A stretch of DNA of 53,396 nt from Clostridium tyrobutyricum DSM 2637 = ATCC 25755 = JCM 11008 (GTDB lineage: Bacteria > Bacillota > Clostridia > Clostridiales > Clostridiaceae): NCBI RefSeq assembly GCF_000359585.1, contig NZ_APMH01000029.1, forward strand, positions 1 through 53,396. The letters run 5' to 3'. The position numbers and the translations under genes were made by a program. Positions 5,856 to 44,513 of the stretch are shown piece by piece. How positions within the stretch are numbered: position 1 is the first letter of the stretch; each line of letters begins with the position of its first letter. The notes below the pieces were generated by a model. That model worked only from the letters and a program-made list of their open reading frames with translations. It did no database searches and was not told the origin of the DNA.

Positions 5856-5915
5856 AAAAAAGGCCAAGGTAAATTAAATAAATTTACCTTAGCCTTCAGA
5901 TTTCTGATCAACTAA
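5856..5915 (-). promoter_or_regulatory. GA-loop attenuator, copy 1 (between K1 and nifB-like)
   Basis: On the minus strand: TTAGTT-GA-TCAG-AAAT-CTGA-A-GGCTAA (5915-5889) forms a hairpin with a GA/A internal loop. The GGCTAAGGTAAATT strand then pairs with AATTTACCTTGGCC before T6 (terminator, 5895-5856), so the two folds exclude each other. It is the only copy with a U-A closing pair in the upper stem. It lies inside the operon, 10 nt after the K1 stop. Confidence 0.8.
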
Positions 5916-5924
5916 TAGCTAATT

Positions 5925-7253
5925 TTATTTGTACGTTTCTAATATATTGCCATATATATCCTCAATAAGTCGCATACCTCCATTATACCCTAAATATCCC
6001 CCATTTAATACCAATCTATGCATAATTGGAATAGATATATTAATTTTAAATGCATTAATCTCATCAGCTATGTCTCTATCCCATGAGCTGCCTAATATTA
6101 AAGGTATATGGGTTCCAACATCATATTCTCTCAATCTCTGATGGATCTTTCCTGAATCAACCTCGAAAAACACTTTAAAATCTCTAGTATCTGATAAGCT
6201 ATTAAACTTTTCTATTATATACTCCTGATATTTTTTGGGAACATCATCTGTTATATACTGCTCTCCAGGAACAATTCCAAGTTCATTCAATAGAAATTGA
6301 CTAATTCCAAGAGCATAAAATGAATCTGTTATATTAAAAAACCTGTCTGGTATACTATATCTAAATTCCAAAAAGAAATCTGCAGCTCTTTCTAAATAAT
6401 AATAGAATTTGTCCTCTTCTTTCTTAATATAATTTTCTACTACATCATTGTCCAGATCTGCGAATTCTTTAACTGATCTTAAAAATTTACTTGTCTCCTT
6501 AGCTCCTATAGGTGGAACGGCATAATGCAAATATGGAGTTCCATATTTCTGCTTCAATAATTTTGCTGTTTCCACTCCAACCCATGGTGAGGCTACTATA
6601 TTAAATTCAGCATCAGGTATTGTTTGCAACTCTTCTACTCCGCCAGACTCAGGTCCAAATAATATATTAACTTCCAGACCTATTCCTTCTAATAAATGCT
6701 TTATTATACTTAAATTTCCCGCCCAAAAGCTATCTTGAAATGGTACTGAAGCAAAAACATTCACCAAATTTTTTTTAATTTTTGGCTTTCTGTCTCCAAT
6801 AAATTGATCTATAATAGCTTTTAATACCAATTCATGTCCCTTAAAATTAGTACCTTTAAATCCTCCTGTTTCCGCAAAAACTATTGGTACTCCATTTTTT
6901 TTATATTCTCCAACTATCTGGCCTATATCATCTCCAACTATGTCAGATGTGCAGCCTGTTAATACTACAAATAGATCTCCCTTTAGAACTTTTAGTGTTC
7001 CATCAATAACTTCTTTCAATCTCTTGCTGCCACCAAATACTACTTCTTTTTCAGTAGAATTTGTACACGGAATTACGCCACCTCCTGAATATCCTGTTCC
7101 CTGATATCCTGAATCGGTACTAAGTCCTCTGAATAATTTTACGCCGCATCCTGGTCCAGAATGAAGTATTGGCATTGCACCTTTTATGGCAATTACAGAT
7201 TGCTGAGCTCCAAGAGTGCAGTAATGTCTGGGTTGTTCTATTATTTTTAGCAT
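5925..7253 (-). CDS. Nitrogenase-like reductase, NifK/MarK-type beta subunit (K1)
   Basis: A 442-residue component-1 beta-type subunit. The three P-cluster cysteines stand in HYCTLGA (C12), HSGPGC (C36) and LTGCTSDIVGDD (C101); FAETGGFKGTNFKGH and the C-terminal GYLGYNGGMRLIEDIY motif also match. It is shorter than true NifK and lacks its N-terminal extension. It begins one base after the D1 stop with its ribosome site in the D1 end, so it should be made in step with D1. The partner is D1; electrons should come from the NifH-like protein. Sulfur context favours C-S bond reduction over dinitrogen reduction, but the substrate is inferred. Confidence 0.88.
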   Translation of the reverse strand: MLKIIEQPRHYCTLGAQQSVIAIKGAMPILHSGPGCGVKLFRGLSTDSGYQGTGYSGGGVIPCTNSTEKEVVFGGSKRLKEVIDGTLKVLKGDLFVVLTGCTSDIVGDDIGQIVGEYKKNGVPIVFAETGGFKGTNFKGHELVLKAIIDQFIGDRKPKIKKNLVNVFASVPFQDSFWAGNLSIIKHLLEGIGLEVNILFGPESGGVEELQTIPDAEFNIVASPWVGVETAKLLKQKYGTPYLHYAVPPIGAKETSKFLRSVKEFADLDNDVVENYIKKEEDKFYYYLERAADFFLEFRYSIPDRFFNITDSFYALGISQFLLNELGIVPGEQYITDDVPKKYQEYIIEKFNSLSDTRDFKVFFEVDSGKIHQRLREYDVGTHIPLILGSSWDRDIADEINAFKINISIPIMHRLVLNGGYLGYNGGMRLIEDIYGNILETYK

Positions 7254-7254
7254 A

Positions 7255-8721
7255 TTACTTGCCCTCCTTTAAAAAAGTATCAGGTCTTTGTTTAAACCAC
7301 CAATCAGTATATGGGAATTTGGCATGGGCTGAAATATTCTTTACAAACTCTGGAGTTTCAAGTACATCCAAAACCTTATTTCCATAATTTATCAATCCTT
7401 GATATCCTAATCCAAAGTGCTCATCTCCCATTAAAAATGTAGGTATTCCAAGTTTTGCACCCCATATAGACATACCACCATGACGTGCAATAAAAATATC
7501 CGGTTTCAGTCTGTTAAGTGAATTCACAAGTTCATAAGCCTGTTTGTCACATACACTGAAATTTTTAATATCCCCATATGTGTTAACTGCATGATCCAAA
7601 CTTTTGCCTGATTCAGATCTATTATCATAGCAAGGATCATGATGAAATATTGAGGCACCAACAACTTCCAAGCCCAAATCTTCTAAAAGTGCTATTAAAC
7701 TATGCCCATGAGCTGCTCCAGCTGTAACATATGCTCTTTTTCCCTTTAACTTTTTTCTCAATTTTTCAAGTTCTGGATATATTCTTTCTTTTTCAGATTT
7801 AAGTAGTTCTTCAACTTCAGTTTCTTTATCAGTTATTCTGCCCAGTTCTCTAAACCACTCATCTGTTCCTTTTATTCCATATGCAGGTGGAGCTTTTACT
7901 TCAGGTACTCCATATTCCTGTTCCAAAGCAGCTGCCAAATAGGTGCCAAGAGTAGGACATATTTGAACGGTAGCTGCAGCTTCCGATATCTTTTGAAGCT
8001 GATCTATTGTAGAAAAAGGAACAATATAATTTGGTTTTAATCCTATTTTTCCAAAAAGACCAGTAAAAATATCACTTCCCCAAAAGTTAATTACATTTAT
8101 TAAATCTTTTCTTTTTTTAACAGGCGGTTTTACTATCTTTCTAATTATTCCATGATAGGCGGCATCAAAACCAGTTGTCCATATTTTTGATTTGAAACCT
8201 TCACAAGGAATATATACTATTGGTATCTTAAGCTTTTTTTCTGCTTCTTGAGCTATTGTATCTATATCATCGCCTATTATACCTGATGCACAAGAAGCTG
8301 TTATAAAAATTGCTTTAGGATTAAATCTTTCAAAAGCTTCATTTATTGTAGCCTTTAGTTTTTCACCTCCACCGTATATAGTGTCTTTTTCATCCAAATT
8401 TGTACTTAATAATCTAGCATTTTTAGGTTTGAAATTTCTCTTTCTCTGTCCAACTCTGTTTGTAAAATTAAAATCTGAAAAATCTGCTGAACATCCAAGC
8501 GGTGCATGATTTATCACAACCGCATCTTGTATCATAACCAACTGACACAGTGCCTGTCCTGAGCTACATCCAAGGCATTGGCTAAAAGAATGCTTCCTAT
8601 CACACAACCTTTTTCCTTTAGACATTTCACATAATTCAGATGCACTTCCTGAAAACCCAGTAATCGAACCAAGTCTATTTTCTCTGATTTTTACCTCTGG
8701 TGATTTTATATTAATACTCAA
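7255..8721 (-). CDS. Nitrogenase-like reductase, NifD/MarD-type alpha subunit (D1)
   Basis: A 488-residue component-1 alpha-type subunit. P-cluster cysteines lie in the CLGCSSGQALC segment (49-59), NHAPLGC (C77) and TASCASGIIGDD (C144). C255 in VQICPTLGTY fits the cofactor-binding cysteine of NifD. The segment CEGFKSKIWTTGFDAAYH (173-190) replaces the NifD stretch with the Gln191/His195 pair, as expected for a non-nitrogen-fixing group. By ungapped comparison from the GIP motif, Gln441 sits where NifD has His442. It starts with TTG (8721) behind AGGAGGG; no ATG is better placed. The leader carries an S-box, yezD and a GA-loop attenuator. Related to D2 at 28,484. Confidence 0.88.
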   Translation of the reverse strand: MSINIKSPEVKIRENRLGSITGFSGSASELCEMSKGKRLCDRKHSFSQCLGCSSGQALCQLVMIQDAVVINHAPLGCSADFSDFNFTNRVGQRKRNFKPKNARLLSTNLDEKDTIYGGGEKLKATINEAFERFNPKAIFITASCASGIIGDDIDTIAQEAEKKLKIPIVYIPCEGFKSKIWTTGFDAAYHGIIRKIVKPPVKKRKDLINVINFWGSDIFTGLFGKIGLKPNYIVPFSTIDQLQKISEAAATVQICPTLGTYLAAALEQEYGVPEVKAPPAYGIKGTDEWFRELGRITDKETEVEELLKSEKERIYPELEKLRKKLKGKRAYVTAGAAHGHSLIALLEDLGLEVVGASIFHHDPCYDNRSESGKSLDHAVNTYGDIKNFSVCDKQAYELVNSLNRLKPDIFIARHGGMSIWGAKLGIPTFLMGDEHFGLGYQGLINYGNKVLDVLETPEFVKNISAHAKFPYTDWWFKQRPDTFLKEGK

Positions 8722-8764
8722 AATAATTCCCTCCTAATACTCAATTTACCTTTGATAAGAAAAA

Positions 8765-8833
8765 TAAAAAAAGACCAAGCATAAGTCACAATAACAATGA
8801 CTCGCTTAGTCTCCAGTTTATCTGGTCAACTAA
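8765..8833 (-). promoter_or_regulatory. GA-loop attenuator, copy 2 (before D1)
   Basis: Minus strand: TTAGTT-GA-CCAG-ATAAA-CTGG-A-GACTAA, with the 3' strand also forming AGACTAAGCGAGTCAT / ATGACTTATGCTTGGTCT plus T7. The lower stem has six pairs, two beyond the core. It lies between yezD and D1, downstream of the SAM riboswitch. Confidence 0.85.
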
Positions 8834-8851
8834 TATAATAATATTATATAT

Positions 8852-9010
8852 TTACACCAATCTAACTTTTTCATTTTTCTCTATCTGTATTACTCTACCA
8901 TCTTGAACAACTAAGGTTATGGAACCATACTTCATTACTTTAAGCATTTCCAGTAACCTGTTTAAATCTTTTTGCGAAATACCAGTAGATAATTTTTTCT
9001 TATCCACCAT
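8852..9010 (-). CDS. yezD: YezD family small protein (DUF2292)
   Basis: A 52-residue protein starting MVDKKKLSTGIS and ending NEKVRLV, with the family core MKYGSITLVVQDGRVIQIE. ATG 9010 has an AGGAGTG site at the right spacing. The family is small, soluble and of unknown biochemical role, and recurs in sulfur-assimilation and S-box-controlled loci. Here it is the first gene behind a SAM riboswitch and just before a nitrogenase-like operon. A frameshifted paralog is at 763-925. Confidence 0.85.
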   Translation of the reverse strand: MVDKKKLSTGISQKDLNRLLEMLKVMKYGSITLVVQDGRVIQIEKNEKVRLV

Positions 9011-9040: not shown

Positions 9041-9195
9041 AAAAAACAAAACCTTCCTGCTGATAGATGCAAAGAAGGTAATTTTCTATTCTCTCATCTT
9101 TCAGGTATATTCCTGTAGGAATTGGCACCTTGAATTAAAATTTCATTCAGGTTGCTGGGCATCATAGGGCCATTCCCTCCGCCTCTCTTGATAAG
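9041..9195 (-). ncRNA. SAM-I riboswitch (S-box) before yezD-D1-K1
   Basis: Minus-strand blocks CTTATCAAGAGAGGCGGAGG, AATGGCCCTATGATGCCC, AGCAACC, GGTGCCAATTCC and GATGAGAG. The terminator is ACCTTCTTTGC / GCAGGAAGGT with a T run (9051-9079). Confidence 0.95.
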
Positions 9196-9219
9196 ACTAA
9201 TATAAATTTTATAATTTAT

Positions 9220-9275: not shown

Positions 9276-10718
9276 CTACATGATTTTTTTAAAATCTACA
9301 TCTCTTAATTTAATTATTTTTGTCTTGAATTTTTTCTTATATATTATAAATAGTAACAAAAATATAGGAAGTCCTATATAAGAAGATATTACTCCTCCCC
9401 AGTCTATTTTTGCCTGTTGAAAATACGTAATACCCTGTCCCAATATTACAACTGCACAAAGTAAAAATGCAATTATAGGTCCTAGTGGAAATAATTTTGC
9501 CTTATATTTGAGAATACTCATATCTTTATGTTGAGCTATGCAAGCTTTTCTAAACCTATAATGGCATATTGCTATTCCAAGCCATGCTATAAATCCTGAA
9601 AGCCCAGAAGCTGCTACAAGCCACACATAAACAGAAGTCTCGGCATACAATCCTGTTAAAAAGCAGGCAGAAGCTACTACTGTTGTTAGTATAACTGCAT
9701 TTACAGGAACACCCTTTGTATTAACTCTTCCAAAAATTCTAGGAGCCTTTTTATCGTTTGCCATAGAATACAGCATCCTTGTAGAAGCATACAATCCTGA
9801 ATTACCACAAGATAATACAGAAGTCAATATGACTGCATTCATAAGTGAAGCTGCCCCAGCTACTCCTGCTTTTTGAAATATCATAGTAAATGGGCTGGTT
9901 TGAACTCCTGCCCTGGTATATGGAATTAATGCACCAACTACAAATATGGTTCCAAGATAAAATAGTATTATTCTCCAAAATATAGTATTTATTGCCTTAG
10001 GTATAGTTTTCTCTGGATTTTCACTCTCTCCTGCAGCAATACCAATAAGTTCTGTACCCTGAAATGAAAACCCTGCAATCAAAAATACTAAAAATATAGA
10101 TTTAGGGCCTCCTACAAAAGGTGCTTCACCAATAGTAAAATTTTTAAGTCCTATTGGATTTCCATTAAAAATCCCAACTATCATCGCAACTCCTGTTACC
10201 AAAAATACTATAACAGTAGCTACTTTAATTCCTGCAAACCAAAATTCAGACTCACCATAAGCCCTTGCAGACAATAAATTTAATATTACTATAAGTGATA
10301 GAAATAAAACACTCCATATTACTGATGGAACAAAAGGAAACCAAAATTTCATTATTAATGCTCCTGCTACCATCTCTGCAGCTACTGTAATAGCCCAATT
10401 ATACCAATAGTTCCACCCTAGAGCAAAACCTAAAGCTGGATCAACAAATTTAGTTGCATAAGTTCCAAAAGATCCTGAATCAGGCATAAAGGTTGCCATT
10501 TCTCCAAGACTTGTCATTAAAAAATAAACCATTATTCCTATACAACAGTAAGCCACTATTGCTCCACCAGGACCGGCTTGTTTTATAGTATCTCCCAAAG
10601 CCAAAAATATGCCTGTACCAATAGAACCTCCAAGAGCAATCATATTCATATGTCTAGCTTTAAGCCCTCTTTTCAGCTTATGTGAATTATTATCTGATTC
10701 TTCCAAAGTATTTTGCAT
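9276..10718 (-). CDS. lysP: Lysine permease (APC superfamily)
   Basis: A 480-residue membrane transporter with about 12 hydrophobic segments. RGLKARHMNMIALGGSIGTG is the N-terminal signature of amino acid/proton symporters of the LysP/GABA-permease group, and GTELIGIAAGE is the conserved segment of TM6. The lysine riboswitch in its leader identifies the substrate as lysine better than the protein sequence does. I start at ATG 10718, which has an AGGAGTGG site; the longer reading from 10775 has none. It is the only gene in the left half not tied to sulfur or redox. Confidence 0.9.
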   Translation of the reverse strand: MQNTLEESDNNSHKLKRGLKARHMNMIALGGSIGTGIFLALGDTIKQAGPGGAIVAYCCIGIMVYFLMTSLGEMATFMPDSGSFGTYATKFVDPALGFALGWNYWYNWAITVAAEMVAGALIMKFWFPFVPSVIWSVLFLSLIVILNLLSARAYGESEFWFAGIKVATVIVFLVTGVAMIVGIFNGNPIGLKNFTIGEAPFVGGPKSIFLVFLIAGFSFQGTELIGIAAGESENPEKTIPKAINTIFWRIILFYLGTIFVVGALIPYTRAGVQTSPFTMIFQKAGVAGAASLMNAVILTSVLSCGNSGLYASTRMLYSMANDKKAPRIFGRVNTKGVPVNAVILTTVVASACFLTGLYAETSVYVWLVAASGLSGFIAWLGIAICHYRFRKACIAQHKDMSILKYKAKLFPLGPIIAFLLCAVVILGQGITYFQQAKIDWGGVISSYIGLPIFLLLFIIYKKKFKTKIIKLRDVDFKKIM

Positions 10719-10751
10719 TTTACCACTCCTAATGTTTCTTAATATTTTAAG

Positions 10752-10980
10752 ACAAAATAAAAATACCTTGAGCATAACTCAAGGCGCATAAAGTATAATA
10801 TAATTACTTCAACGTTTGATAGCTCCCCACATCTTATGTGACAGTTATATATATATTATATATATAACCAACTTATAATAAAGTAGCCTTACTATAAGTT
10901 TCGGCAATATCTCCTTTCAAACGGTTTCATAGTGCTCACCTCCACCATTCTACTTATAAATATCGCACCTCTATCCGATT
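10752..10980 (-). ncRNA. Lysine riboswitch (L-box) plus terminator
   Basis: Minus-strand blocks AGAGGTGCGAT, AAGTAG, GAAAGGAGATATTGCCGAA, ACTGTCACAT and ATGTGGGGAGCTATC are the lysine aptamer. The terminator is CCTTGAGTTATGCTCAAGG followed by TATTTTTATTTT (10784-10752). Confidence 0.93.
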
Positions 10981-10996
10981 ATACAATTATGTATAT

Positions 10997-11765: not shown

Positions 11766-11779
11766 TAAAAAAATTTTTA

Positions 11780-17458: not shown

Positions 17459-17524
17459 TGAAAAAACACTAGATACTCATACTCCTAAAACAGGAATAAG
17501 TCTCTAGTGTTTCTAGTCAACTTT
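17459..17524 (-). promoter_or_regulatory. GA-loop attenuator, copy 3 (before metY2)
   Basis: Minus strand: AGTT-GA-CTAG-AAACA-CTAG-A-GACT hairpin, then ACACTAGAGACTTAT with ATGAGTATCTAGTGT and T6 as the overlapping terminator. Confidence 0.85.
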
Positions 17525-20399: not shown

Positions 20400-21307
<908 letters not shown>

Positions 21308-29993: not shown

Positions 29994-30046
29994 AATAAAA
30001 GACCAAACATTTGATAATGCTTAGCCTCCAGTATTTCTGGTCAACT
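29994..30046 (-). promoter_or_regulatory. GA-loop attenuator, copy 5 (directly before D2)
   Basis: Minus strand: AGTT-GA-CCAG-AAATA-CTGG-A-GGCT hairpin, then AGGCTAAGCATT pairs with AATGTTTGGTCT before TTTT. No separate promoter is visible just upstream, so it seems to act on transcripts already past copy 6. Confidence 0.85.
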
Positions 30047-30061
30047 TAACCAATTATATAT

Positions 30062-30115: not shown

Positions 30116-30129
30116 TTAGATATTAATAA

Positions 30130-30191
30130 CAAAAACCAGAGGCTTTAAAACAAAACATTTTGTTTTAAAGCCTCTGGTTTTCCAGTCGACC
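30130..30191 (-). promoter_or_regulatory. GA-loop attenuator, copy 6 (upstream of the D2 leader)
   Basis: Minus strand: GGTC-GA-CTGG-AAAA-CCAG-A-GGCT hairpin, with CCAGAGGCTTTAAAACAAAA forming a long perfect terminator stem plus T5. The lower stem uses G-U, G-C, U-G and C-G pairs, different bases from copy 4. Confidence 0.88.
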
Positions 30192-31908: not shown

Positions 31909-31969
31909 TAAAAAATCAGAGGTTTTGAAATAAATTTATTATTCAAAACCTCTGGTTTTCCAGTCAGCT
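31909..31969 (-). promoter_or_regulatory. GA-loop attenuator, copy 7 (before the GldA-like gene)
   Basis: Minus strand: AGCT-GA-CTGG-AAAA-CCAG-A-GGTT hairpin; CCAGAGGTTTTGAA pairs with TTCAAAACCTCTG before T6. Lies just downstream of a SAM riboswitch terminator, giving two attenuators in series. Confidence 0.87.
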
Positions 31970-33663: not shown

Positions 33664-33694
33664 ATAATCTACCTCCTGAGAACTCAATAATAAA

Positions 33695-33745
33695 AAATTA
33701 AAGCCAGAGATTTAGTTAATAAAATCTCTGGCTTTCCAGTCGATT
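33695..33745 (-). promoter_or_regulatory. GA-loop attenuator, copy 8 (before D3 pseudogene)
   Basis: Minus strand: AATC-GA-CTGG-AAAG-CCAG-A-GATT hairpin; GCCAGAGATTT pairs with AAATCTCTGGC before a T-rich tail. Still intact although the genes behind it are dead. The A-U, A-U, U-A, C-G lower stem differs at three positions from other copies but still pairs. Confidence 0.87.
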
Positions 33746-33864: not shown

Positions 33865-33920
33865 AACTGACCGGTGAACCGGAGGTTACATTTGTTAAAA
33901 GTGTAACCTCCGGTTTTCTT
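33865..33920 (+). promoter_or_regulatory. GA-loop attenuator, copy 12 (before metY3-importer)
   Basis: AACT-GA-CCGG-TGAA-CCGG-A-GGTT hairpin; AACCGGAGGTTACA pairs with TGTAACCTCCGGTT before TTCTTT. The CCGG/CCGG upper stem is unique among the copies and keeps full pairing. Confidence 0.88.
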
Positions 33921-35339: not shown

Positions 35340-36356
35340 ATGAATAAAATTACTAGAATAGTTGCTGCTCTATTGCTTGTAGCAGCAGTACCAACTCTCG
35401 CTTCATGTGGAAAAAGTACTTCTACTTCTTCCACTCAAACAGGAAAATACAAATATGGAAAACTTGAAATCGAAGCCCTGGGAGGTGGGGTTTGTGGTGC
35501 TCCTGCTTATATAGCAAAAGAAAAAGGATTCTTTGCCAAAGAGGGATTTGATGTAACTCTTGTAAGTGGAACATTTGAAGATCAAAAAACTGGACTTGCC
35601 AGTGGTAAATTTACCGTTACAAACGGTGACTTTCAGTTTTTTCCTTCAGTTCAACAGGGACTTGACATTAAAGTTATAGGAGGACTGCATAAAGGTTGTA
35701 TAAAATTAGTTGTACCTCCTAATTCACCAATAAAAACTGCAAAAGATTTAAAAGGGAAAAAAATAGGAGTAGATGAAATAGGCGGGACACCTATGGCTAT
35801 AACAAGTGTAGTTCTTGCAAATCACAATATTGATCCAACAAAAGGAGTCAAATGGGTTCCATATCCTCTGGATCAGTTAACAAAAGCTGTAGATAAAGGT
35901 GATGTTGATGCTTTTGCAGCATGGGATCCTTTTGCCACATTGGCAGAAAAGAATAATAATTACAGAGTTGTAACAGATATTGCTCAAGATCCATTATTCA
36001 AAGGAAAGTCCTGCTGTTTCTTATATGCATCAAATAAAGAGATTAAGAATAATCCTGAAAAAATTGCAGCTCTTGTAAGAGCATATAAAGCTGCAGATGA
36101 ATGGATATCAAAACATCCAGAAGAAACTGCCAAAATTGAACTTGATAAGAAATATATATCAGGTGGTGATTTAAAGTTAATTACTGAACTTATAAAGAGT
36201 TATGATTTTGAATATACTACTGACGCTGCCAAAGATGACGTTAAATATTTTGTAGGACAATTGAATAAAACCGGATTCTTGAAAAAGAACACAGATCCTA
36301 CTAAATTTACTAATGATGTATATTATGATGCATTAGGTAGTTCAAAAAATAAATGA
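35340..36356 (+). CDS. ABC transporter substrate-binding lipoprotein (SsuA/NMT1 type)
   Basis: A 338-residue lipoprotein with lipobox LASC at about residues 20-23, then EALGGGVCGAPAYIAKEKGF, GVDEIGGTPMAI and AAWDPFATLAEK. It belongs to the sulfonate/nitrate/taurine binding family but is only distantly related to the one at 26,066, so the two importers likely take different ligands. GGGGAA precedes ATG. Confidence 0.86.
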   Translation: MNKITRIVAALLLVAAVPTLASCGKSTSTSSTQTGKYKYGKLEIEALGGGVCGAPAYIAKEKGFFAKEGFDVTLVSGTFEDQKTGLASGKFTVTNGDFQFFPSVQQGLDIKVIGGLHKGCIKLVVPPNSPIKTAKDLKGKKIGVDEIGGTPMAITSVVLANHNIDPTKGVKWVPYPLDQLTKAVDKGDVDAFAAWDPFATLAEKNNNYRVVTDIAQDPLFKGKSCCFLYASNKEIKNNPEKIAALVRAYKAADEWISKHPEETAKIELDKKYISGGDLKLITELIKSYDFEYTTDAAKDDVKYFVGQLNKTGFLKKNTDPTKFTNDVYYDALGSSKNK

Positions 36357-36375
36357 CATATTAGGGGTGAATACT

Positions 36376-37419
36376 TTGAGTGAATCTGTAAATTTAAAAG
36401 GCATATCAAAATCTAATGAATTATCAAATGTAGATAATAAATTACCTCTTGTTAAAGCACCAGATACAATAAATTGGAAACCTAAATCGAAGGTTTGGCC
36501 AATTTTGCAAATTGTTGCCTTTGCTGCAGCTTTAATTGAAAATACTTTGATGCCTACAGAACAAATTGTTAATAATTTTCCATATAGAATATTTTTAATA
36601 CTTTTTATAATATACTTAGGAGTGCAATATATTATTTCATTTTTTAACGAAACGATTAGTGTAAAAGTGAATCATAAATCTCAATTTTATTTTGCCATAG
36701 GAATTGGATTTATTGCTTGGGATATATTATCTACCAAAACCAATATATTACCACTCCCATTTTTTCCTGGAGCAGCTCAGATAGTTCAAGTATTAGTAGA
36801 AGATATTAATACACTCTTGATAAGTACAGCATACTCCATGAGACTTCTAGTACTTGGTTTTATTGCAGGTACAATTCTGGGTTTAGTATCAGGAATCTTA
36901 ATGGGATGGTATAGACAGTGGTATTACTGGTTTTTCCCCATACTTAAAATTATAGGAGTAGTACCAGCTGTTGCATGGATACCTATAGCAATGATAGTGT
37001 TTCCATCTACTTTGGTTTCCCAGGTATTCCTTATCGTCCTCTGCGTATGGTTTCCTGTAGCCTTTATGGCTTGTGGAGGTATAGAAAATATACCTAAATC
37101 ATATTTTGAAGCAGCAAAAACTCTTGGAGCAGATGAAAAATTTTTAATATTTAAAATTGCAATACCAGGTGCCATGCCATCTATATTTACAGGCATTTAT
37201 ACTGCTACAGGCTTGTCATTTACCACATTGGTAGTTTCTGAAATGCTAGGTGCAAAAGCAGGTCTTGGATGGTATATAAATTGGGCTAAAGGATGGTCTA
37301 ATTATGCAAAAGTATATGCAGCTATAGTTATAATGGCAGTAGTTTTTTCTATTGTACTGGCAATTATATTTAAAATTAGAGATAGAGTGCTTATATGGCA
37401 AAAGGGGTTGTTGAAATGA
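36376..37419 (+). CDS. ABC transporter permease, sulfonate/nitrate/taurine type
   Basis: A 347-residue SsuC-like permease with three or so extra N-terminal hydrophobic segments before the core (RMRLLVLGFIAG-like region, coupling loop EAAKTLGADEKFLIFKIAIP). I choose TTG 36376, spaced 8 nt from AGGGG; the GTG at 36367 overlaps that site. The stop overlaps the ATPase start (ATGA). Confidence 0.84.
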   Translation: MSESVNLKGISKSNELSNVDNKLPLVKAPDTINWKPKSKVWPILQIVAFAAALIENTLMPTEQIVNNFPYRIFLILFIIYLGVQYIISFFNETISVKVNHKSQFYFAIGIGFIAWDILSTKTNILPLPFFPGAAQIVQVLVEDINTLLISTAYSMRLLVLGFIAGTILGLVSGILMGWYRQWYYWFFPILKIIGVVPAVAWIPIAMIVFPSTLVSQVFLIVLCVWFPVAFMACGGIENIPKSYFEAAKTLGADEKFLIFKIAIPGAMPSIFTGIYTATGLSFTTLVVSEMLGAKAGLGWYINWAKGWSNYAKVYAAIVIMAVVFSIVLAIIFKIRDRVLIWQKGLLK

Positions 37420-38195
37420 TAGAAACTCAGACTACAAACAATGCTTCCATTAAAATAAATAATGTAAACAGAATATATATAGATGCAAATGGAAACCTGG
37501 TTGAAGCTTTAAGAGATATAAATTTAAATATCAGAGCTGGAGAATTCATTTCATTTATAGGTCCATCAGGTTGTGGCAAAACTACACTTATGAGGCTTAT
37601 AGCAGGTCTTGATAAACCTCAATCTGGAGAATTGTTTTTAGATAATGAAAAGATAGAAAATACTAACTTCGAAAGAGGTTATGTATTTCAACAGGCAAAT
37701 TTATTTCCATGGGAAACTATTGAAAATAACATTGCCGCAGGCTTGAAAGCTAGAAAAATTTATAAAGAGCACAAAAATGAAGTAAAGGAATATATAAAAC
37801 TTACCGGCCTTGAAGGATTTGAAAATTCTTATCCCCATCAAGTTTCTGGTGGTATGGCTCAAAGAGCCTCTCTTGCTCGTGCACTTATTAATAATCCCAA
37901 AGTATTACTGCTAGATGAACCTTTAGGAGCATTAGATGCTTTTACAAGAATGGATCTTCAGGATAAATTAATTGAATTATGGCAGCAAAGAAAAACAACT
38001 ATGGTATTGGTTACCCATGATGTAGATGAGGCAATTTATTTAAGTAATAGAGTAGTAATTATGACACCACGTCCTGGTAAGATAGAGGAAATTGTAAAAA
38101 TTGAACTTGAAAGACCTAGAAATAGAACCGCTCACAAATTTGTTGAACTCAGAAAAGAAATATTGGAAAAACTGCATATAGCAAGGAAACATTAA
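37416..38195 (+). CDS. ABC transporter ATPase, sulfonate/nitrate/taurine type
   Basis: A 259-residue SsuB-like ATPase: Walker A GPSGCGKTT, FQQANLFPW Q-loop, HQVSGGMAQR signature, Walker B VLLLDEPLGALD and VTHDVDEA. I start at ATG 37416 (AAGGGG 8 nt upstream), which overlaps the permease stop by four bases; the ATG at 37395 has no site. Last gene of the operon. Confidence 0.86.
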   Translation: MIETQTTNNASIKINNVNRIYIDANGNLVEALRDINLNIRAGEFISFIGPSGCGKTTLMRLIAGLDKPQSGELFLDNEKIENTNFERGYVFQQANLFPWETIENNIAAGLKARKIYKEHKNEVKEYIKLTGLEGFENSYPHQVSGGMAQRASLARALINNPKVLLLDEPLGALDAFTRMDLQDKLIELWQQRKTTMVLVTHDVDEAIYLSNRVVIMTPRPGKIEEIVKIELERPRNRTAHKFVELRKEILEKLHIARKH

Positions 38196-38256: not shown

Positions 38257-38973
38257 TTATTTATCCTTAATTCCTATGAAGCGATAGCCTATACCTCTTA
38301 CAGTCAAAATATATAGGGAATTTTTAGGATTATCCTCTAGTTTTTGTCTTAAATTTTTTATATGAGAATCAATAGCCCTGTCATATCCATCAAAACTTTT
38401 TTCTAATACAATAGATATCAATTCTTCCCTGGTAAAATTCTTTTCAGGATATGAAGCCATTGTTTTAAGTATATTGTATTCTATTGGAGTAAGATTAACT
38501 ATAGTGCCTGATTTTTTAACTTCATATTTTAGAGTATCAATTATCAATTTACCATTATTAAATGAAATTAGACCTTCCTTGCGAAGTTTATCACCTTCTG
38601 TTCTTCTAATCAGTGCTTTTACTCTAGCTACTAATTGTCTTGGACTGAAAGGCTTGGTTACATAATCATCTGCGCCTATATCAAGTCCATTAATTATATC
38701 GCCTTCAGATGTTTTAGCTGTAAGCATTATAATAGGTATTTTTGACTTTTCTCTCAGTATTCTGCATAAATTCTCTCCATTAATATCAGGAAGCATCAAG
38801 TCCAATATCATAAGATCAGGATTTATTTTATCAAATAACTTCATAACAGTTATTCCATCATATGCGGAGTATACAAAATACTCCGCTTTTTCAAGATATG
38901 ATTTGATAACTTCTACAATCTTGGTTTCATCATCTACTACAAGTATTCTCTTTTTCTGTTTATGCATTTTCAT
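38257..38973 (-). CDS. OmpR/PhoB-family response regulator
   Basis: A 238-residue regulator: receiver with the acidic pair DD (14-15), phospho-acceptor Asp58 in LMILDLMLPD, and KPFS; then a winged-helix DNA-binding domain ending VRGIGYRFIG. It is the last gene of the minus-strand copper operon, about 3.8 kb from the kinase at 42,819, which has its own promoter. They may be partners as they are the only two-component genes here. It may regulate the copper genes; that is inference. Confidence 0.92.
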   Translation of the reverse strand: MKMHKQKKRILVVDDETKIVEVIKSYLEKAEYFVYSAYDGITVMKLFDKINPDLMILDLMLPDINGENLCRILREKSKIPIIMLTAKTSEGDIINGLDIGADDYVTKPFSPRQLVARVKALIRRTEGDKLRKEGLISFNNGKLIIDTLKYEVKKSGTIVNLTPIEYNILKTMASYPEKNFTREELISIVLEKSFDGYDRAIDSHIKNLRQKLEDNPKNSLYILTVRGIGYRFIGIKDK

Positions 38974-39018
38974 AATTCAAACTCCGTTCAAATTCAATAA
39001 TTTTTTACAAGTTGAATT

Positions 39019-39813
39019 TTATTTTTCAATTATAGATTTTACAGTTATTACAGAAAATTTTCTGCCATCGGCATCAGGTCCTAAATTAGTTTTTGTATTT
39101 CCATTCAAAACTCCTGTAATTTTAACAGGAACAGGACTTTTACCTTTTCCACTTTTAACTTTTTGTTCAACCAGTTGCCATGCACTTAGTTGAGAATCCG
39201 TACCATCAAAAGCCCATTTTCCATCAGAACCTTTTTTATTATCTGTAGAAAATGTGCCATCGAAATAATAGAAAAACCATTTTCCATCCTGTTGAAAAGT
39301 TATTCCAAGTCCCGACAATGCCATCAACCTCATATATATCATATCCGCCGTATCTTCTTTAAGTCCCGCTGCGAAATCATCCTCTGAAGTAACATACCCT
39401 TCAAAGTTCTGTATTTTAGGTGTGGAATTTTTGGAATTATTTTCTTTAGTCTTCTGTGTGTTGGAAATTTTTACTCCCACTACTTGAGATTTAGTCTGAG
39501 ACTTTGATTCTATATTGGATTTAGTTTCAAATTGTCCCTGATGCATATCTTGATGCTTTGGTTCCATGTTGGATTTAGTTTCAGATTTATTTTGGCCTTC
39601 ATTTTTTGATTTATTTTGTGGTTGTAAACTTGTTTTATTATCCCTTGATTGTACTGACTTATCATTCTTTATTTTATCTTTGCCGGCAGAAACTTCGTTG
39701 CTGTTTTGTCCAGCTGATTTTAAAGTTCTATCTTTTATACTCCATATAGCTCCAATTAAAACTATACATATTACTATAATTACTCCAATTAAAATTTTCT
39801 TTTTTATTTTCAT
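39019..39813 (-). CDS. Surface protein with Lys/Gln/Asn-rich spacer and a novel C-terminal domain
   Basis: A 264-residue protein. An N-terminal membrane helix (about 6-26) is followed by a charged low-complexity spacer of about 110 residues that includes MEPKHQDMHQGQ and repeated SETKSN/FETKSN motifs. The C-terminal domain (about 139-264) starts GYVTSEDDFAAGLKEDTADM and ends with GPDADGRKFSVITVKSI. The same domain ends the wall protein at 41,163. I know no name for it. The spacer has the Met/His content seen in copper-binding surface proteins. Confidence 0.7.
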   Translation of the reverse strand: MKIKKKILIGVIIVICIVLIGAIWSIKDRTLKSAGQNSNEVSAGKDKIKNDKSVQSRDNKTSLQPQNKSKNEGQNKSETKSNMEPKHQDMHQGQFETKSNIESKSQTKSQVVGVKISNTQKTKENNSKNSTPKIQNFEGYVTSEDDFAAGLKEDTADMIYMRLMALSGLGITFQQDGKWFFYYFDGTFSTDNKKGSDGKWAFDGTDSQLSAWQLVEQKVKSGKGKSPVPVKITGVLNGNTKTNLGPDADGRKFSVITVKSIIEK

Positions 39814-39820
39814 GTGTTTA

Positions 39821-39842
39821 CCGCTACTAAAATTATAGCGGT
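39821..39842 (-). other. Hairpin between ribosome site and start codon
   Basis: CCGCTA and TAGCGG pair around a short loop, seven to eight nt before ATG 39813. The only good ribosome site (GAAGGTGA) lies on the far side of the hairpin, so folding may be needed to bring it into range. Confidence 0.5.
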
Positions 39843-39873
39843 TTTCACCTTCTTTCTGAGTTATTTTTAAAAT

Positions 39874-41082
39874 TTAATTTGTAGGACTTTTAATTTGATC
39901 TTGTTTTAATTTGCTGAAATTATCAACTACTGTTATCTTGCTTTTTATCATACCCATCCAGCATGTATACATAAATTCCCCTTTTTCATAAGGAATAAAT
40001 TCAATTATATTATCTCCAACCTTCAGGTTTTTTTTGATTTTATATTTTGGTATTTGAATGGCTTTATTGCACTCATTTAGATTTTTTTCATCAACATGTA
40101 GATTCCATTTAACAGGTACGCCTTTTACTACCTCAATAGGTGGAAAAGTATCACTTCCCAATTCTGTCTTTATATTTTGATTTTTGCCTTCGATGGTTGA
40201 AAATCCTTCTCCAGATATACTAACCATACTTTTCATGCCCATTGATATACCATAAAGTGAAAGTCCTCTTCCAATCATAATAACTCCAAGAGAAAGTACA
40301 AGAACAGCACTGAATTTTAATATGATTTTAGAGAAATTTTTAGTTATAAATGTATTTAATATACCAAATGTAAACAATAGAGGAATTGTTCCAATAGAAA
40401 AAAAGAACATGGATACAGCACCTAATAATATACTTTTTGTCCCAAGTGCATATAACTGTATTATTTGAAGTGGACCACAGGGCATCAATCCTGTTAAAAA
40501 TCCAACAATAATAGGACTATAATTGTTTTTTCTTCGTACTTTTCTGGCAACAAAAGATGGCATGGTAATGTTTATCCTTCTCAACACTTTGAAAATACCC
40601 AATAGGTTTATTGACATTATAATCATAAATATGCCACCAATAATTGGGACAATGCCCCTGAGCGTACCTGATAGGCTTATTACACTTCCTAACCCTCCTA
40701 CAATTCCTCCAACAATAGTATAAGATAAAATTCTCCCTGCATTATAAAATAAAGAAGATCTGAATATTGTATTTTTGATTTTCCTTTCACTTTTATTAAT
40801 AGTCTGAGATAATGTTATTCCTCCACACATTCCTATGCAGTGAAAAGATGTCATTACTCCAAATATAAAAAGAAGTGCATAACTAGTATTATTACCCAGC
40901 CGAGGCAAATATTTTAGCATAAACAGGTTTTTAAGAACTTCTAGTATGTTTATCTTGAAAATACTCTTTAAAATTATTATAAACAACACAACTACCATAA
41001 TTGAGATTATAATCCATATGTTTTTATTTTTTTGTTTATTCAATTTATTATTAGTTGTGTTTTCCAATATATCTACTTTCAA
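39874..41082 (-). CDS. SafE/TauE-like membrane protein with a cupredoxin-like C-terminal domain
   Basis: A 402-residue protein. One TM helix near residue 25-45 precedes a COG2836-type core (HCIGMCGGITLSQ, GLMPCGPLQIIQLYALG) with about six more helices. The last ~120 residues are extracytoplasmic and end FIPYEKGEFMYTCWMGMIKS, with the Cys-x2-4-Met pattern of a type-1-like copper site. The SafE-like core is common next to copper-ATPase and FixH genes in ccoGHIS-like clusters. It starts with TTG behind GGAGGGG. I infer copper handling rather than sulfite export. Confidence 0.75.
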   Translation of the reverse strand: MKVDILENTTNNKLNKQKNKNIWIIISIMVVVLFIIILKSIFKINILEVLKNLFMLKYLPRLGNNTSYALLFIFGVMTSFHCIGMCGGITLSQTINKSERKIKNTIFRSSLFYNAGRILSYTIVGGIVGGLGSVISLSGTLRGIVPIIGGIFMIIMSINLLGIFKVLRRINITMPSFVARKVRRKNNYSPIIVGFLTGLMPCGPLQIIQLYALGTKSILLGAVSMFFFSIGTIPLLFTFGILNTFITKNFSKIILKFSAVLVLSLGVIMIGRGLSLYGISMGMKSMVSISGEGFSTIEGKNQNIKTELGSDTFPPIEVVKGVPVKWNLHVDEKNLNECNKAIQIPKYKIKKNLKVGDNIIEFIPYEKGEFMYTCWMGMIKSKITVVDNFSKLKQDQIKSPTN

Positions 41083-41107
41083 ATTTTCCCCTCCTCAAGA
41101 CCTGTCA

Positions 41108-41156
41108 GTAAAAATACTATAAACGAAACATTCTGGATAGTTTCGTTTATAGTTTG
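41108..41156 (-). terminator. Terminator between the wall protein and SafE-like gene
   Basis: Minus strand CTATAAACGAAAC and GTTTCGTTTATAG with TATTTTT tail. Read-through would be needed for the downstream genes unless they have their own promoter. Confidence 0.8.
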
Positions 41157-41162
41157 ATTTTT

Positions 41163-42620
41163 CTAATTTGCAGTTATGGATTGTACTTTTATTACAGGAT
41201 AATTAATTCCATCAGCATCAGGTCCTGGATTGGTTCGTGTAGTTCCATCTAATGTACCCGTTAAGGTAACAGGTACGGCTTTTTTACTGTCTGAACCATT
41301 GTTTCGTTTAATCTGATTTTCAACAATATTCCATGCATTTAGTTGTGATCCTGTACCATTAAACTTCCATTTACCATTATCTCCATCCTTATTATCTGTA
41401 GCAATGTTTCCATCAAAATAATAAAAAACCCATTTGCCATCCTTGTCCTTATATGTTATACCAAGTCCAGATAGTGCCATCATTTTCATATATATCATAT
41501 ATGCTGTATCTTCACCAAGTGATGCTGCATAATCATCTTCTGTAGTTATATATCCTGTAAAAGTCTGTTCAACTGGAACATTATCAGAAGATATGGCTGT
41601 TTTTATAGAATTTATAATTGTTTCAGGTATTACACCATTTCCCCCTAAAATATCCACTTCTGATGAAGAAGTTAAATTTGTTTTTAAATAATTAATAGCA
41701 TTTACTGTAGTACTTGATGTCTGTTTATCCAATAATACAAGTGGAGAATTATTCTTTCCTGCCAGTACAGATGCTACTAGTGCATCTGAAAATTGGTTGT
41801 CAAGGATATTCTTTGAAGCATTGGCTACATATGCTTTGTCGTATTTTAAATAACTTTTGAATTGATTCAATATATTTAAATTTGTAGCAAATCTGTCTGA
41901 GCCCCCATTGATTCTCTTATCTGCATGTATAGCATCATATATTGTTTTATTTATCGAATTGGTAGTACCAACCACTGTCACATATGAATCCCTGGCAAAA
42001 TTAATAGTATCCTGTATAGATGACTGATTATTATTGGTAAGCAACAATATTTGATTCTCAGCTGCTGCAATAGGTGCCACAGAAAGTGCATCTGCAAATC
42101 CATTTCCTGATACAGCTATTACATTCTCTTTGCTTGTTCCCAATTTATCAACTAATTCCTTAGCTACATTTAAGTTAGTTTCATATCTACTTACTCCACC
42201 AATCCTGATTACTTTATCACAACTTTCACTTAATTTAGTTTCAATTTGTGATGAAACCACACCTGTTCCACCAATTATATATATGTTCTTAGGTTTTAAC
42301 TGTTTCAATTCACTTATAGTATTTGAATCAAGTGAATTTTTACCTGTAAACAATATTGGCGCATCTAATTTTTTAGCTAATGTTGAAGCGCTTATTGCAT
42401 CTGCATAACTATTTCCATTTACAATAACAGCATTATCACTGCCATCAGTCCAATTTGCTTTAGCAGCATTTACTGCCGTTTCATATCTGTCCTTGCCACT
42501 TATTCTTGTTACCTGAACTAAAGATGATGCACTAACATCTGTTGAATTAATGCCACTTCCTAAAATCGTTGTTGTCAAACTTGCTAAAAGTACTAAAGAT
42601 ACTAATTTCTTATTTTTCAC
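41163..42620 (-). CDS. Cell-wall-binding protein (three CWB2 repeats) with the novel C-terminal domain
   Basis: A 485-residue secreted protein. A signal peptide is followed by three cell-wall-binding type 2 repeats (RISGKDRYETAVNAAK, RIGGVSRYETNLNVAK and RINGGSDRFATNLNI) that anchor to teichoic-acid-like polymers. The C-terminal ~130 residues (from GYITTEDDYAASLGEDTAYM to GPDADGINYPVIKVQSI) are the domain shared with the protein at 39,019. It starts with GTG behind GGGGGAA. A GA-loop attenuator and promoter lie upstream. Confidence 0.85.
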   Translation of the reverse strand: MKNKKLVSLVLLASLTTTILGSGINSTDVSASSLVQVTRISGKDRYETAVNAAKANWTDGSDNAVIVNGNSYADAISASTLAKKLDAPILFTGKNSLDSNTISELKQLKPKNIYIIGGTGVVSSQIETKLSESCDKVIRIGGVSRYETNLNVAKELVDKLGTSKENVIAVSGNGFADALSVAPIAAAENQILLLTNNNQSSIQDTINFARDSYVTVVGTTNSINKTIYDAIHADKRINGGSDRFATNLNILNQFKSYLKYDKAYVANASKNILDNQFSDALVASVLAGKNNSPLVLLDKQTSSTTVNAINYLKTNLTSSSEVDILGGNGVIPETIINSIKTAISSDNVPVEQTFTGYITTEDDYAASLGEDTAYMIYMKMMALSGLGITYKDKDGKWVFYYFDGNIATDNKDGDNGKWKFNGTGSQLNAWNIVENQIKRNNGSDSKKAVPVTLTGTLDGTTRTNPGPDADGINYPVIKVQSITAN

Positions 42621-42649
42621 AACTTATTCCCCCTTAATTTTTATAAATA

Positions 42650-42712
42650 AAAAAGGCCAGAATTCTCCTTTTATTCTAAGGAAAATCCTAGCCTCTAGCT
42701 TTCTAGTTAGCT
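42650..42712 (-). promoter_or_regulatory. GA-loop attenuator, copy 9 (before the wall protein)
   Basis: Minus strand: AGCT-AA-CTAG-AAAG-CTAG-A-GGCT hairpin; AGGCTAGGATTTTCC pairs with GGAGAATTCTGGCCT (imperfect) before T6. The internal loop reads AA instead of GA. Confidence 0.8.
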
Positions 42713-42740
42713 TTAAAATTAACTATTTATTGTTGAATAC

Positions 42741-42769
42741 ATAGTAATATAGATTGTATATATTGTCAA
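42741..42769 (-). promoter_or_regulatory. sigma-A promoter of the wall-protein operon
   Basis: TTGACA (42769-42764), 17 nt, TACTAT (42746-42741), about 25 nt before attenuator copy 9. Confidence 0.88.
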
Positions 42770-42818
42770 TACTTTTTTATTGTAGATTAGATGTATAAAA
42801 TATTAATATTTTGTTAAC

Positions 42819-44204
42819 TTATATATTGATGGGCAATGACACTACAAACTCACTACCCTCATTGACTCTGCTCTTTACTATTATTTTACCTCCATGAAGT
42901 TCCACAATAGTCTTTGTTATGGCTAATCCAATTCCATTTCCACCTGTTAATCTATTTCTTGATTTATCAGCACGATAAAATCGATCAAATATAAATGGTA
43001 TATCATCATCAGAAATACCTATACCAGTATCTTTCACACTTATTTCTGCTGTATTACTTGTCCCTTTTAAATTTATTATTACAATACCACCTTTTGGAGT
43101 ATATTTAAGAGCATTAGACATGAGATTTACTATAACCTGACTTATTTTGTCCTTTTCAGCAGATATATAGCATTTATTTCCATGAAATTTTATTCTTACT
43201 TCCTTATTTTTAAATTCTGCCTGAAAATTAAATATTACATTTTTTATTTGTTCACATAAATCATACTTTATCCTATTCAATTTGCTGTTTTGATATTTTC
43301 CTAACATCCCTAATTGATTGACTAAACTAGTGATTCTAATTATTTCTTCATAGTAACTTTGCAATCTCTTTTTATCAGGTTCCCATATACCATCTATCAT
43401 TGCCTCCATATGACTTTGAAGAGTTGCAAGAGGAGTCCTTAATTCATGAGCTATATCATCAGACATCCTTTCTTTTAATACTTTATGTGATTCCAAAGTT
43501 TTAGCCATGTTGTTAATAGTAGAAATCAATATATAAATTTCTTTAGTATTAGATTTTTCATCAACTCTATTTTTAAAATATCCCTTGGAAATGCTTTCTG
43601 CTGCTCTAACTACCCTTGCAATAGGTCTACTTAATATCTGCGCCATAAAAATTCCCATTATTTGAGCAAAAAATAGAGAAAATATAAATGCAAATATAAG
43701 TATTCTATTTTTTAATGTATAAATAAAACCAATATCAGTATTGTTGTAATAAAACGGTCCGTAATATCCCACAATTACTGTTCCTATTTTGCTTTCATCA
43801 TGATAAACTGGATATGATTTAGTCTTATACTTTCCACTCCAATTAGGATAATACTTGTTCATATTTTTTGACATATCATCAAGCATCTGCTTACATAAAC
43901 CATTATTATGAACAGCTGCATCCCATATTATTCTGTTATGTACATCGCTTACTTTGATAATCATTCCACGTTCAAGGTATCCAATTCCTATATTTTCAAT
44001 AACATCGTGATTCCATGATCCATTATTATATTGATTTTTTATAAGATTAAGCATTTCCTGATTTGAAAGTTCCTGATTATGTATGGTATACAACCTGAAT
44101 TGCTTTTCAAGAAGTGCATTCATCAATATACTTATTAAAAATACACAAACTATTGTAACAAGAACATATGATGCTGTTAATCTCATTCTCAAACTGATTT
44201 TCAT
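42819..44204 (-). CDS. Sensor histidine kinase
   Basis: A 461-residue kinase: TM helix near 10-30, an extracytoplasmic sensor of about 140 residues, TM helix near 170-195, HAMP, DHp box MSDDIAHELRTPLATLQSH, then N, G1 (VKDTGIGI), F and G2 (GGNGIGLAI) boxes. I start at ATG 44204 behind GAGAGGAG; the longer reading from 44222 lacks a site. The stimulus is unknown; the neighbouring copper genes make copper the first guess. It has a private promoter and attenuator. Confidence 0.92.
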   Translation of the reverse strand: MKISLRMRLTASYVLVTIVCVFLISILMNALLEKQFRLYTIHNQELSNQEMLNLIKNQYNNGSWNHDVIENIGIGYLERGMIIKVSDVHNRIIWDAAVHNNGLCKQMLDDMSKNMNKYYPNWSGKYKTKSYPVYHDESKIGTVIVGYYGPFYYNNTDIGFIYTLKNRILIFAFIFSLFFAQIMGIFMAQILSRPIARVVRAAESISKGYFKNRVDEKSNTKEIYILISTINNMAKTLESHKVLKERMSDDIAHELRTPLATLQSHMEAMIDGIWEPDKKRLQSYYEEIIRITSLVNQLGMLGKYQNSKLNRIKYDLCEQIKNVIFNFQAEFKNKEVRIKFHGNKCYISAEKDKISQVIVNLMSNALKYTPKGGIVIINLKGTSNTAEISVKDTGIGISDDDIPFIFDRFYRADKSRNRLTGGNGIGLAITKTIVELHGGKIIVKSRVNEGSEFVVSLPINI

Positions 44205-44228
44205 TTTTATTACTCCTCTCAAAAATCA

Positions 44229-44296
44229 TAAAAAAATACTAAGGATTATTTCAATAACTCAAAATATATCCTTAGTCTCTAGTTTTCCAGTTGACC
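44229..44296 (-). promoter_or_regulatory. GA-loop attenuator, copy 10 (before the kinase)
   Basis: Minus strand: GGTC-AA-CTGG-AAAA-CTAG-A-GACT hairpin; ACTAAGGATATATTTTGAG pairs with the matching strand ahead of T7. The internal loop is AA, as in copy 9. Confidence 0.8.
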
Positions 44297-44323
44297 CAAG
44301 TTAATCTTTAAATATTTGCATTC

Positions 44324-44352
44324 ATAATAATTCAGTTTTCTATACTTGTCAA
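44324..44352 (-). promoter_or_regulatory. sigma-A promoter of the kinase gene
   Basis: TTGACA (44352-44347), 17 nt, TATTAT (44329-44324). Confidence 0.88.
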
Positions 44353-44397
44353 TCAATTATTAACTTTCATATTGAATATTCTGGCTATTGCAAATCA

Positions 44398-44426
44398 TTG
44401 ACATAGCTTTATCAACATGCTAAAAT
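44398..44426 (+). promoter_or_regulatory. sigma-A promoter of the copper ATPase operon
   Basis: TTGACA (44398-44403), 17 nt, TAAAAT (44421-44426). The predicted start is about 20 nt before attenuator copy 11. Its -35 lies only 46 nt from the divergent kinase -35. Confidence 0.85.
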
Positions 44427-44454
44427 ACAATATATTATATTTAATTATCTAAAA

Positions 44455-44513
44455 AGTTGACCAGATAACTGGAGGCTAATAATCCTGTACAGGATTATTA
44501 GCCTTTATTTTTA
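44455..44513 (+). promoter_or_regulatory. GA-loop attenuator, copy 11 (before the copper ATPase)
   Basis: AGTT-GA-CCAG-ATAA-CTGG-A-GGCT hairpin; GGCTAATAATCCTG then pairs with CAGGATTATTAGCC followed by TTTATTTTT. Confidence 0.88.

Follow-up and report, generated by a model that had tools for sequence, protein, structure and literature searches.

Which factor acts on a small RNA hairpin that recurs in twelve leaders of contig NZ_APMH01000029.1 of Clostridium tyrobutyricum DSM 2637? The contig was analysed over its whole length of 53,396 nucleotides (nt), hereafter the window, and each of the twelve hairpins shares part or all of its 3′ strand with an intrinsic terminator. The nearly constant co-occurrence of the hairpin with DUF2292 (PF10055, the YezD family), a protein of ~52 amino acids, points to this protein as the likely hairpin-binding factor. 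DUF2292 is therefore, in our assessment from sequence, probably the antitermination factor acting on the hairpin.

The hairpin, its terminators and its spread

The original prediction held that twelve leaders share one fold, and a mechanical pattern scan (lower stem of 4 pairs, GA or AA, upper stem of 4 pairs, loop, single A) recovered every one of the 12 copies; they span 5891 to 44477, with ten in minus-strand and two in plus-strand orientation. When a loop of 4–5 nt and a downstream TTTT were required as well, the window gave 13 matches, compared with a mean of 0.37 and a maximum of 2 in 60 dinucleotide-shuffled windows; the 13th match, at 12828, was taken as chance. The internal loop consists of GA opposite a single A in 10 copies and of AA opposite A in the copies at 42712 and 44296, exactly as described for copies 9 and 10, and the copy at 44296 has a G·U pair within its upper stem. 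Pairing had been said to survive every change, and this was borne out by standard pairs in 96 of 96 cells, with both sides changing at 5 of the 8 pairs. The covariation score of the 12 copies was reached by none of 500 shuffles, and RNAalifold applied to these copies returned the structure originally drawn. For this and the two larger sets below, the significance of covariation, the lack of which had been named as grounds for rejection, was judged from shuffles standing in for R-scape, and this ground for rejection did not hold.

A 59-row alignment was chosen by hand from the 12 window copies and 47 model matches, covering the window's genome and 13 others and omitting duplicates under two locus ids, orthologues and weak matches such as L024 and L025. 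Its 472 cells are 99.2% paired, 7 of the 8 pairs change on both sides, and the lower-stem pair next to the internal loop is a conserved U·G wobble in 51 of the 59 rows. A further 51 sequences adjoining DUF2292 genes (hand-chosen, 47 of them distinct and mostly from other genera, with identical copies and partial 6–27 matches omitted) are paired in 96.0% of 423 cells and change on both sides at 8 of 9 pairs. Fifty of these lie outside the alignment of the covariance model, while L159 is the same site as one alignment row.

In the predicted minimum free energy structure of the full leader, 3–9 of the 9 nt of the hairpin 3′ strand fall within the terminator helix in 12 of 12 leaders, so that the strand forms the 5′ arm of the terminator wholly or in part, as had been proposed. 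The isolated hairpin folds as described in all twelve, with one pair fewer at 31969. The two forms are mutually exclusive in the predicted folds, which together with the overlap supports the earlier assignment of the hairpin as the antiterminator of an attenuator. Folding energies range from −4.4 to −8.0 kcal/mol for the hairpin alone and from −17.1 to −34.1 kcal/mol for the full leader. With the terminator form far more stable, the terminator should win, and read-through should require something that holds the hairpin.

A covariance model of the kind called for earlier, trained on the 12 window copies only (R1), detected 23 sites in the window's genome (G000) and, independently of its training, matches at an expectation value (E) ≤0.1 in 20 of 58 other genomes. 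For a wider model (R2), the training rows came from G000 plus 13 further genomes (G001, G003, G005, G007–G010, G012, G013, G016, G022, G028 and G041), in which its counts are partly circular; it gave 26 sites in G000 and 3–28 sites in 13 of the 15 other genomes tested, with none in the congener G006 and only two weak matches (E 0.23 and 0.46) in the congener G002. The highest count detected was 33 sites in one genome (G576 of the family sample described below). To judge from these matches, the element is not private to the window and is spread genome-wide and across the phylum, in many Clostridium and Bacillus relatives.

No family of Rfam release 15 reached its gathering score over the hairpin, although SAM (S-adenosylmethionine), lysine and T-box elements were found elsewhere. 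In E-value mode, four window copies and one Bacillus copy gave sub-threshold matches only, mostly of microRNA and small-RNA models on the terminator hairpin. The RNA thus remains, as first suggested, a candidate for an undescribed family.

Co-occurrence and adjacency of the hairpin and DUF2292

PF10055, a profile of 37 positions, was noticed adjoining the elements, and B. subtilis also has a match, which we take to be the protein named YezD. Among close relatives, a DUF2292 match was found in 16 of 21 genomes with the element (E ≤0.1) and in 0 of 38 without it. One of the 16, G037, has a match below the family cut-off, lying 2.2 kb from a weak element, by cobalamin riboswitches and before an immunoglobulin-like gene. 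In the five unmatched genomes the element has E-values of 0.0087–0.079, about the number expected by chance; a split at E ≤0.005 would give a perfect table, was chosen post hoc and is not used. As a group, these weak matches (G021, G033, G040, G054 and G057) were taken as chance: that of G033 lies in a low-complexity repeat, and those of G021 and G054 are unlike an attenuator by eye.

Two larger samples gave the same association. Across 398 genomes of the phylum, DUF2292 (E ≤0.001) is present in 26 of 29 element genomes (E ≤0.02), compared with 68 of 398 overall (Fisher p = 2.7e-19); the three element genomes without it are 93, 85 and 61% complete. Across 206 genomes of the family, it is present in 42 of 47 element genomes (E ≤0.005) and 4 of 159 others (p = 1.8e-33), in all 37 genomes with two or more element copies, and in 28 of the 33 element genomes that lie outside the relatives sample. 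Among the family genomes free of DUF2292, the strongest element (G493, L249:2199-3169) is a lone hairpin-terminator in a decaying ATP-binding cassette (ABC) operon, flanked by a broken ABC ATPase gene on one side and a truncated gene for a binding protein on the other.

The association extends to gene order. A scan of named genomes with a DUF2292 alignment gave 330 loci, of which the best 80 were used, mainly from Bacillus, Peribacillus, Neobacillus, Metabacillus, Clostridium and uncultured Bacillota. At 59 of the 80, a hairpin match on the same strand begins in the interval from 9 nt ahead of the DUF2292 stop codon to 178 nt beyond it, where ~0.03 would be expected (scaled from 0.017 for 200-nt windows). 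Among 50 of these adjacent loci, reviewed with 9 near-identical ones omitted, a T-run follows the hairpin in 49, and the next gene is cysH-like by eye in 34, which is the usual arrangement in Bacilli; two that were tested belong to PAPS_reduct. Other next genes that were tested encode NifH-type, radical SAM, iron-molybdenum-cofactor (FeMo-co)-type, nitrogenase component 1, B12-binding, NMT1-like, PNPOx and NlpA proteins. At 13 of 19 DUF2292 loci taken from the phylum sample, a match at E ≤1 lies just behind the gene, one of them at only E 0.88.

A SAM riboswitch lies upstream of DUF2292 in 25 of 40 loci examined, comprising 13 of 19 loci (one of them the window's second copy), the window's main copy and 11 of 20 loci taken from the 80. 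The window itself shows this series: a consensus promoter, then the SAM riboswitch and the DUF2292 gene, a hairpin-terminator, the nitrogenase-like genes, and finally a second hairpin-terminator before the nifB-like gene. Two features expected of a DUF2292-dependent antiterminator are present: PF10055 is encoded in most element genomes, and part or all of the hairpin 3′ strand belongs to the terminator.

The AlphaFold model of DUF2292 consists of a helix and a beta hairpin with a mean predicted local distance difference test score (pLDDT) of 81. The protein is basic (11 lysine and arginine versus 6 aspartate and glutamate residues), has no solved relative by sequence and also exists as natural tandem repeats. 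Two-domain proteins (L229–L239) have 106–132 residues, end in DGEGI or DGDGI and mostly lack an adjoining hairpin; L229 lies before a gene of the cysteine/methionine pyridoxal-phosphate type (by eye).

A candidate mechanism and its alternatives

By default, the nascent leader would fold into the overlapping terminator and transcription would stop. Under a shortage of methionine or SAM, the SAM riboswitch would permit expression of DUF2292, which would bind the hairpin at its U·G-closed GA/A internal loop and short upper stem, hold the antiterminator form and let RNA polymerase read into sulfur-scavenging operons. We infer both the RNA binding and the direction of control, the latter from the SAM riboswitch before DUF2292, through which a drop in SAM should increase DUF2292 and so activate the regulon. 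In several Clostridium genomes, arrays of hairpins behind Cys-rich leader open reading frames (ORFs) would probably serve as decoys, their RNA titrating DUF2292 while cysteine is abundant. One tiny protein would then receive both signals, SAM and cysteine, each through an RNA sensor of its own. The complete circuit, in which YezD would represent a new RNA-binding antitermination family that runs a sulfur-starvation regulon of the Bacillota, with its level set by SAM riboswitches and titrated by decoys through the Cys codons of leader peptides, is put forward more tentatively than the role of DUF2292 itself, as a possibility somewhat short of an even one.

The arrays consist of 2–5 hairpins within about 260 nt and were sought in the window's genome and the 15 others scanned with R2; they occur in G000 (two), G001, G005, G009 and G010. 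No terminator was seen overlapping the array hairpins, and 5 of the 6 arrays are preceded by a short ORF with a run of Cys codons and a terminator (by eye). One of the G000 arrays itself lies behind a hairpin-terminator, which would give feedback. The simplest reading of this layout is that the arrays are probably decoys made when cysteine is abundant. The arrays of L059, L060 and L061 precede an ORF for a Met/Cys-rich protein, however, and it is quite possible, although we lean against it, that arrays are 5′ leader control sites of such a gene rather than decoys. The L048 array and the second L039 array have a terminator and no ORF behind them (by eye), and in G000 (L039) the Met/Cys-rich ORF is broken while the array hairpins are still there, both of which fit decoys better than leader sites. 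The Met/Cys-rich ORFs are conserved and located at L059:3585-4037 (G009), L060:2556-3029 (G010) and L061:3018-3434 (G005); 67 of 150 residues are Met or Cys in L059, the proteins of L059 and L060 (about 44–45% Met+Cys) have no Pfam match, and the protein is perhaps a sulfur store.

Several observations weigh against a regulatory role of DUF2292 and against the decoy circuit. DUF2292 occurs without a detected element in 42 of the 68 DUF2292 genomes of the phylum sample (E ≤0.02) and in 4 of the 46 of the family sample, and five family genomes have a single element without DUF2292, two of them being only 78 and 70% complete. The weak match of G057 (L026:1501-1575), a genome lacking DUF2292, shows a fair hairpin and a terminator-like stem by eye and may be a real element despite the verdict on its group. 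No hairpin lies just behind the gene at 21 of the 80 loci, two of which have one just upstream; three Treponema loci (L153, L171 and L198) show none, nor do 9 of 11 two-domain genes within 177 nt downstream (by eye). The predicted structure matches no solved fold at E ≤0.001 in Foldseek. Just 6 arrays in 5 genomes carry the decoy proposal, and L061 is without a clean Cys-rich ORF. In B. subtilis, yezD was 3.4- to 4.1-fold up in deep-starved cells, and its deletion did not reduce survival (PMC6385201), a result that does not bear on sulfur. DUF2292 could be a gene of the sulfur regulon that merely adjoins the leader.

It is unlikely, in our estimate, that DUF2292 is an ordinary small accessory protein of sulfur metabolism while a different RNA-binding protein acts on the hairpin. 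Genes of a regulon can co-occur with the sites of their regulator, and the genomes with DUF2292 and no detected element, as well as the missing fold match, fit such a protein. Pfam describes PF10055 as an 'uncharacterized small protein', and yezD is listed in the gene tables of three papers, in two of which, PMC6385201 among them, it is given as unknown. Yet the targets vary, being nitrogenase-like in Clostridia and cysH in Bacilli, while DUF2292 stays, and it is never missing where the element has two or more copies. The hairpin typically stands behind the DUF2292 gene and hence does not control DUF2292 itself there. None of the candidate alternative regulators tracks the element, be it CAT_RBD proteins, ANTAR proteins or PyrR sites. 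A hairpin that senses a small molecule or an ion by itself, as a minimal riboswitch without any protein, would account for the conservation of the internal loop and the A-rich loop across genera, but an aptamer of about 23 nt, with one 2×1 internal loop and flanks that are not conserved, would be very small, and neither the arrays without overlapping terminators nor the tight co-occurrence with one protein family would be explained; we regard this as improbable. Least credible is the alternative that the hairpin represents a PyrR site in divergent form or a target of BglG or ANTAR proteins. A 2015 RNA sequencing study of B. methanolicus MGA3 assigns '(SAM)-(PyrR)' leaders to ssu, metNPQ and a major facilitator superfamily gene, sulfonate and methionine transporters among them (PMC4342826). 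Against this, the PyrR family RF00515 is below cut-off in the window and absent from the matches with E up to 10 at a B. methanolicus copy; 24 of 25 genomes have PyrR sites (E ≤0.001), the two congeners that lack a clear element among them, and no listed site coincides with the element. Among 15 element genomes, CAT_RBD is found in 3 and ANTAR in 10, ANTAR proteins being absent from G001, G003, G008, G012 and G013 and present in G002 and G006. DUF2292 thus remains the preferred factor, and the early impression that the hairpin matches no known class held for Rfam, BglG/LicT, ANTAR and PyrR alike.

The proposed control nevertheless resembles known systems. LicT, SacY and GlcT of the BglG family, which combine CAT_RBD and PRD domains, act on a ribonucleic antiterminator (RAT) of about 30 nt with two internal loops, and in licT-bglP the regulator gene is followed by its attenuator and then the target operon. 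The element here likewise is a short hairpin overlapping an intrinsic terminator, with the candidate regulator gene just upstream of attenuator and target operon, but it has one 2×1 GA/A loop instead of two asymmetric internal loops, and membership of the BglG/LicT-RAT class was rejected on this and the scarcity of CAT_RBD. ANTAR targets, such as those of EutV and NasR, are two successive hexaloop hairpins, and a decoy RNA of the EutX/Rli55 type titrates the factor. Our proposal shares this design, an antitermination factor that binds RNA and is titrated by a decoy RNA bearing the same hairpins, although single hairpins with loops of 4–5 nt exclude the ANTAR class, and the arrays lie behind Cys-rich leader ORFs, not a riboswitch. 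PyrR binding sites are also attenuator elements of Bacillota, but in these genomes lie elsewhere. The S-box (SAM-I) riboswitch serves the same pathway and is often in the same leaders, but is a separate upstream element.

Our literature search, whose coverage mostly left out subscription journals and preprints, returned no description of the hairpin, of a role of DUF2292 or of RNA binding by it. Naville and Gautheret reported in 2010 an attenuator that, in bacilli, is common to the leaders of a sulfonate ABC operon and of an unknown gene (PMC2965389); the text consulted gives neither a sequence nor a partner protein nor a Clostridia regulon. The leaders of PMC2965389 and PMC4342826 may be earlier sightings of the hairpin without its identity. 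As far as sequence comparison goes, the hairpin and DUF2292 represent a new RNA–protein pair within a known kind of control. If this is correct, PF10055 would receive its first function, and a sulfur regulon would control nitrogenase-like enzymes in Clostridia and, seemingly, cysH in Bacilli. Protein-dependent antitermination would gain an RNA–protein pair with an unusually small candidate regulator and a decoy circuit.

Downstream genes and features of the window

Genes behind the element were named by NCBIfam and Pfam in the window and by eye elsewhere. Most relate to sulfur: relatives of nitrogenase NifD/K, NifH and NifB, MetY, MetK, transporters for methionine, sulfonate, sulfate and cystine, and a YbaK-type protein. 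The nitrogenase-like genes are reminiscent of those for methylthio-alkane reductase and further group IV enzymes, among which they may belong. Non-sulfur genes behind the element are copA, those for CWB2 proteins and a sensor kinase. In the window these copper-type genes are copA (hairpin at 44455), the kinase (44296) and CWB2 (42712), and copA and CWB2 genes have the element likewise in G009 and G013.

Features of the window, with hairpins as predicted antiterminators (positions in nt)
Feature	Position	Strand	Context	Basis
Second DUF2292 coding stretch, no in-frame start codon	769..873 (within 766-891)	-	behind SAM riboswitch 1010-1120	
Antiterminator hairpin	5891..5913	-	before nifB-like gene 4606-5823; terminator 5859-5897	pattern scan, fold
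Antiterminator hairpin and terminator (to ~8773)	8808..8831	-	between DUF2292 gene and nitrogenase-like genes 7255-8721 / 5925-7253	
DUF2292 (PF10055, YezD family) gene, 52 aa, proposed antitermination factor	8852..9010	-		Pfam E 4.8e-19
SAM riboswitch	9091..9197	-	directly upstream of DUF2292 gene	RF00162, 86.2 bits
Antiterminator hairpin	17499..17522	-	before O-acetylhomoserine sulfhydrylase (MetY-type) gene 16125-17426	
Antiterminator hairpin	21284..21307	-	before nifH-like gene 20400-21218; terminator 21248-21295	
Antiterminator hairpin	30023..30046	-	directly before nitrogenase-like genes 28484-29953 / 27168-28484	
Second antiterminator, tandem with 30046	30169..30191	-	terminator 30133-30180; consensus promoter 30251-30223 upstream	
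Antiterminator hairpin	31947..31969	-	after SAM riboswitch 32040-32151; before iron-containing alcohol dehydrogenase (Fe-ADH)/GldA-like gene 30745-31878	
Antiterminator hairpin	33723..33745	-	before fragmentary nitrogenase-like gene (33412-33687 and further pieces, by eye)	
Antiterminator hairpin	33865..33887	+	before MetY-type gene 33952-35298 and substrate-binding/ABC operon 35340-38195	
Antiterminator hairpin, AA/A loop	42690..42712	-	before CWB2 cell-wall-binding protein gene 41163-42620	
Antiterminator hairpin, AA/A loop	44274..44296	-	before sensor histidine kinase gene 42819-44222	
Antiterminator hairpin	44455..44477	+	before copper-type P-type ATPase gene 44543-46834; terminator 44470-44507	

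The second DUF2292 stretch of the window is possibly a decayed copy or a sequencing error. Two hairpin-terminators in tandem (30023-30191, minus strand) precede one operon. The region 32322-33687 on the minus strand, behind the hairpin at 33745, contains pieces of a nitrogenase-like gene pair (by eye) and resembles a decaying operon whose attenuator is intact. Copper-type genes at 38257-47300, comprising copA, a DsbD_2/cupredoxin protein, the kinase and a regulator, partly share the sulfur element. Outside the window, L062:3240-4420 (G005) and L066:2880-3560 (G010) each carry a SAM-riboswitch-like sequence (by eye), a hairpin-terminator, a short ORF ending in Cys-Cys-Lys and then an ABC ATPase gene. 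A lysine riboswitch at 10812-10981 (minus strand) precedes an amino acid permease-like gene at 9276-10775 (by eye).

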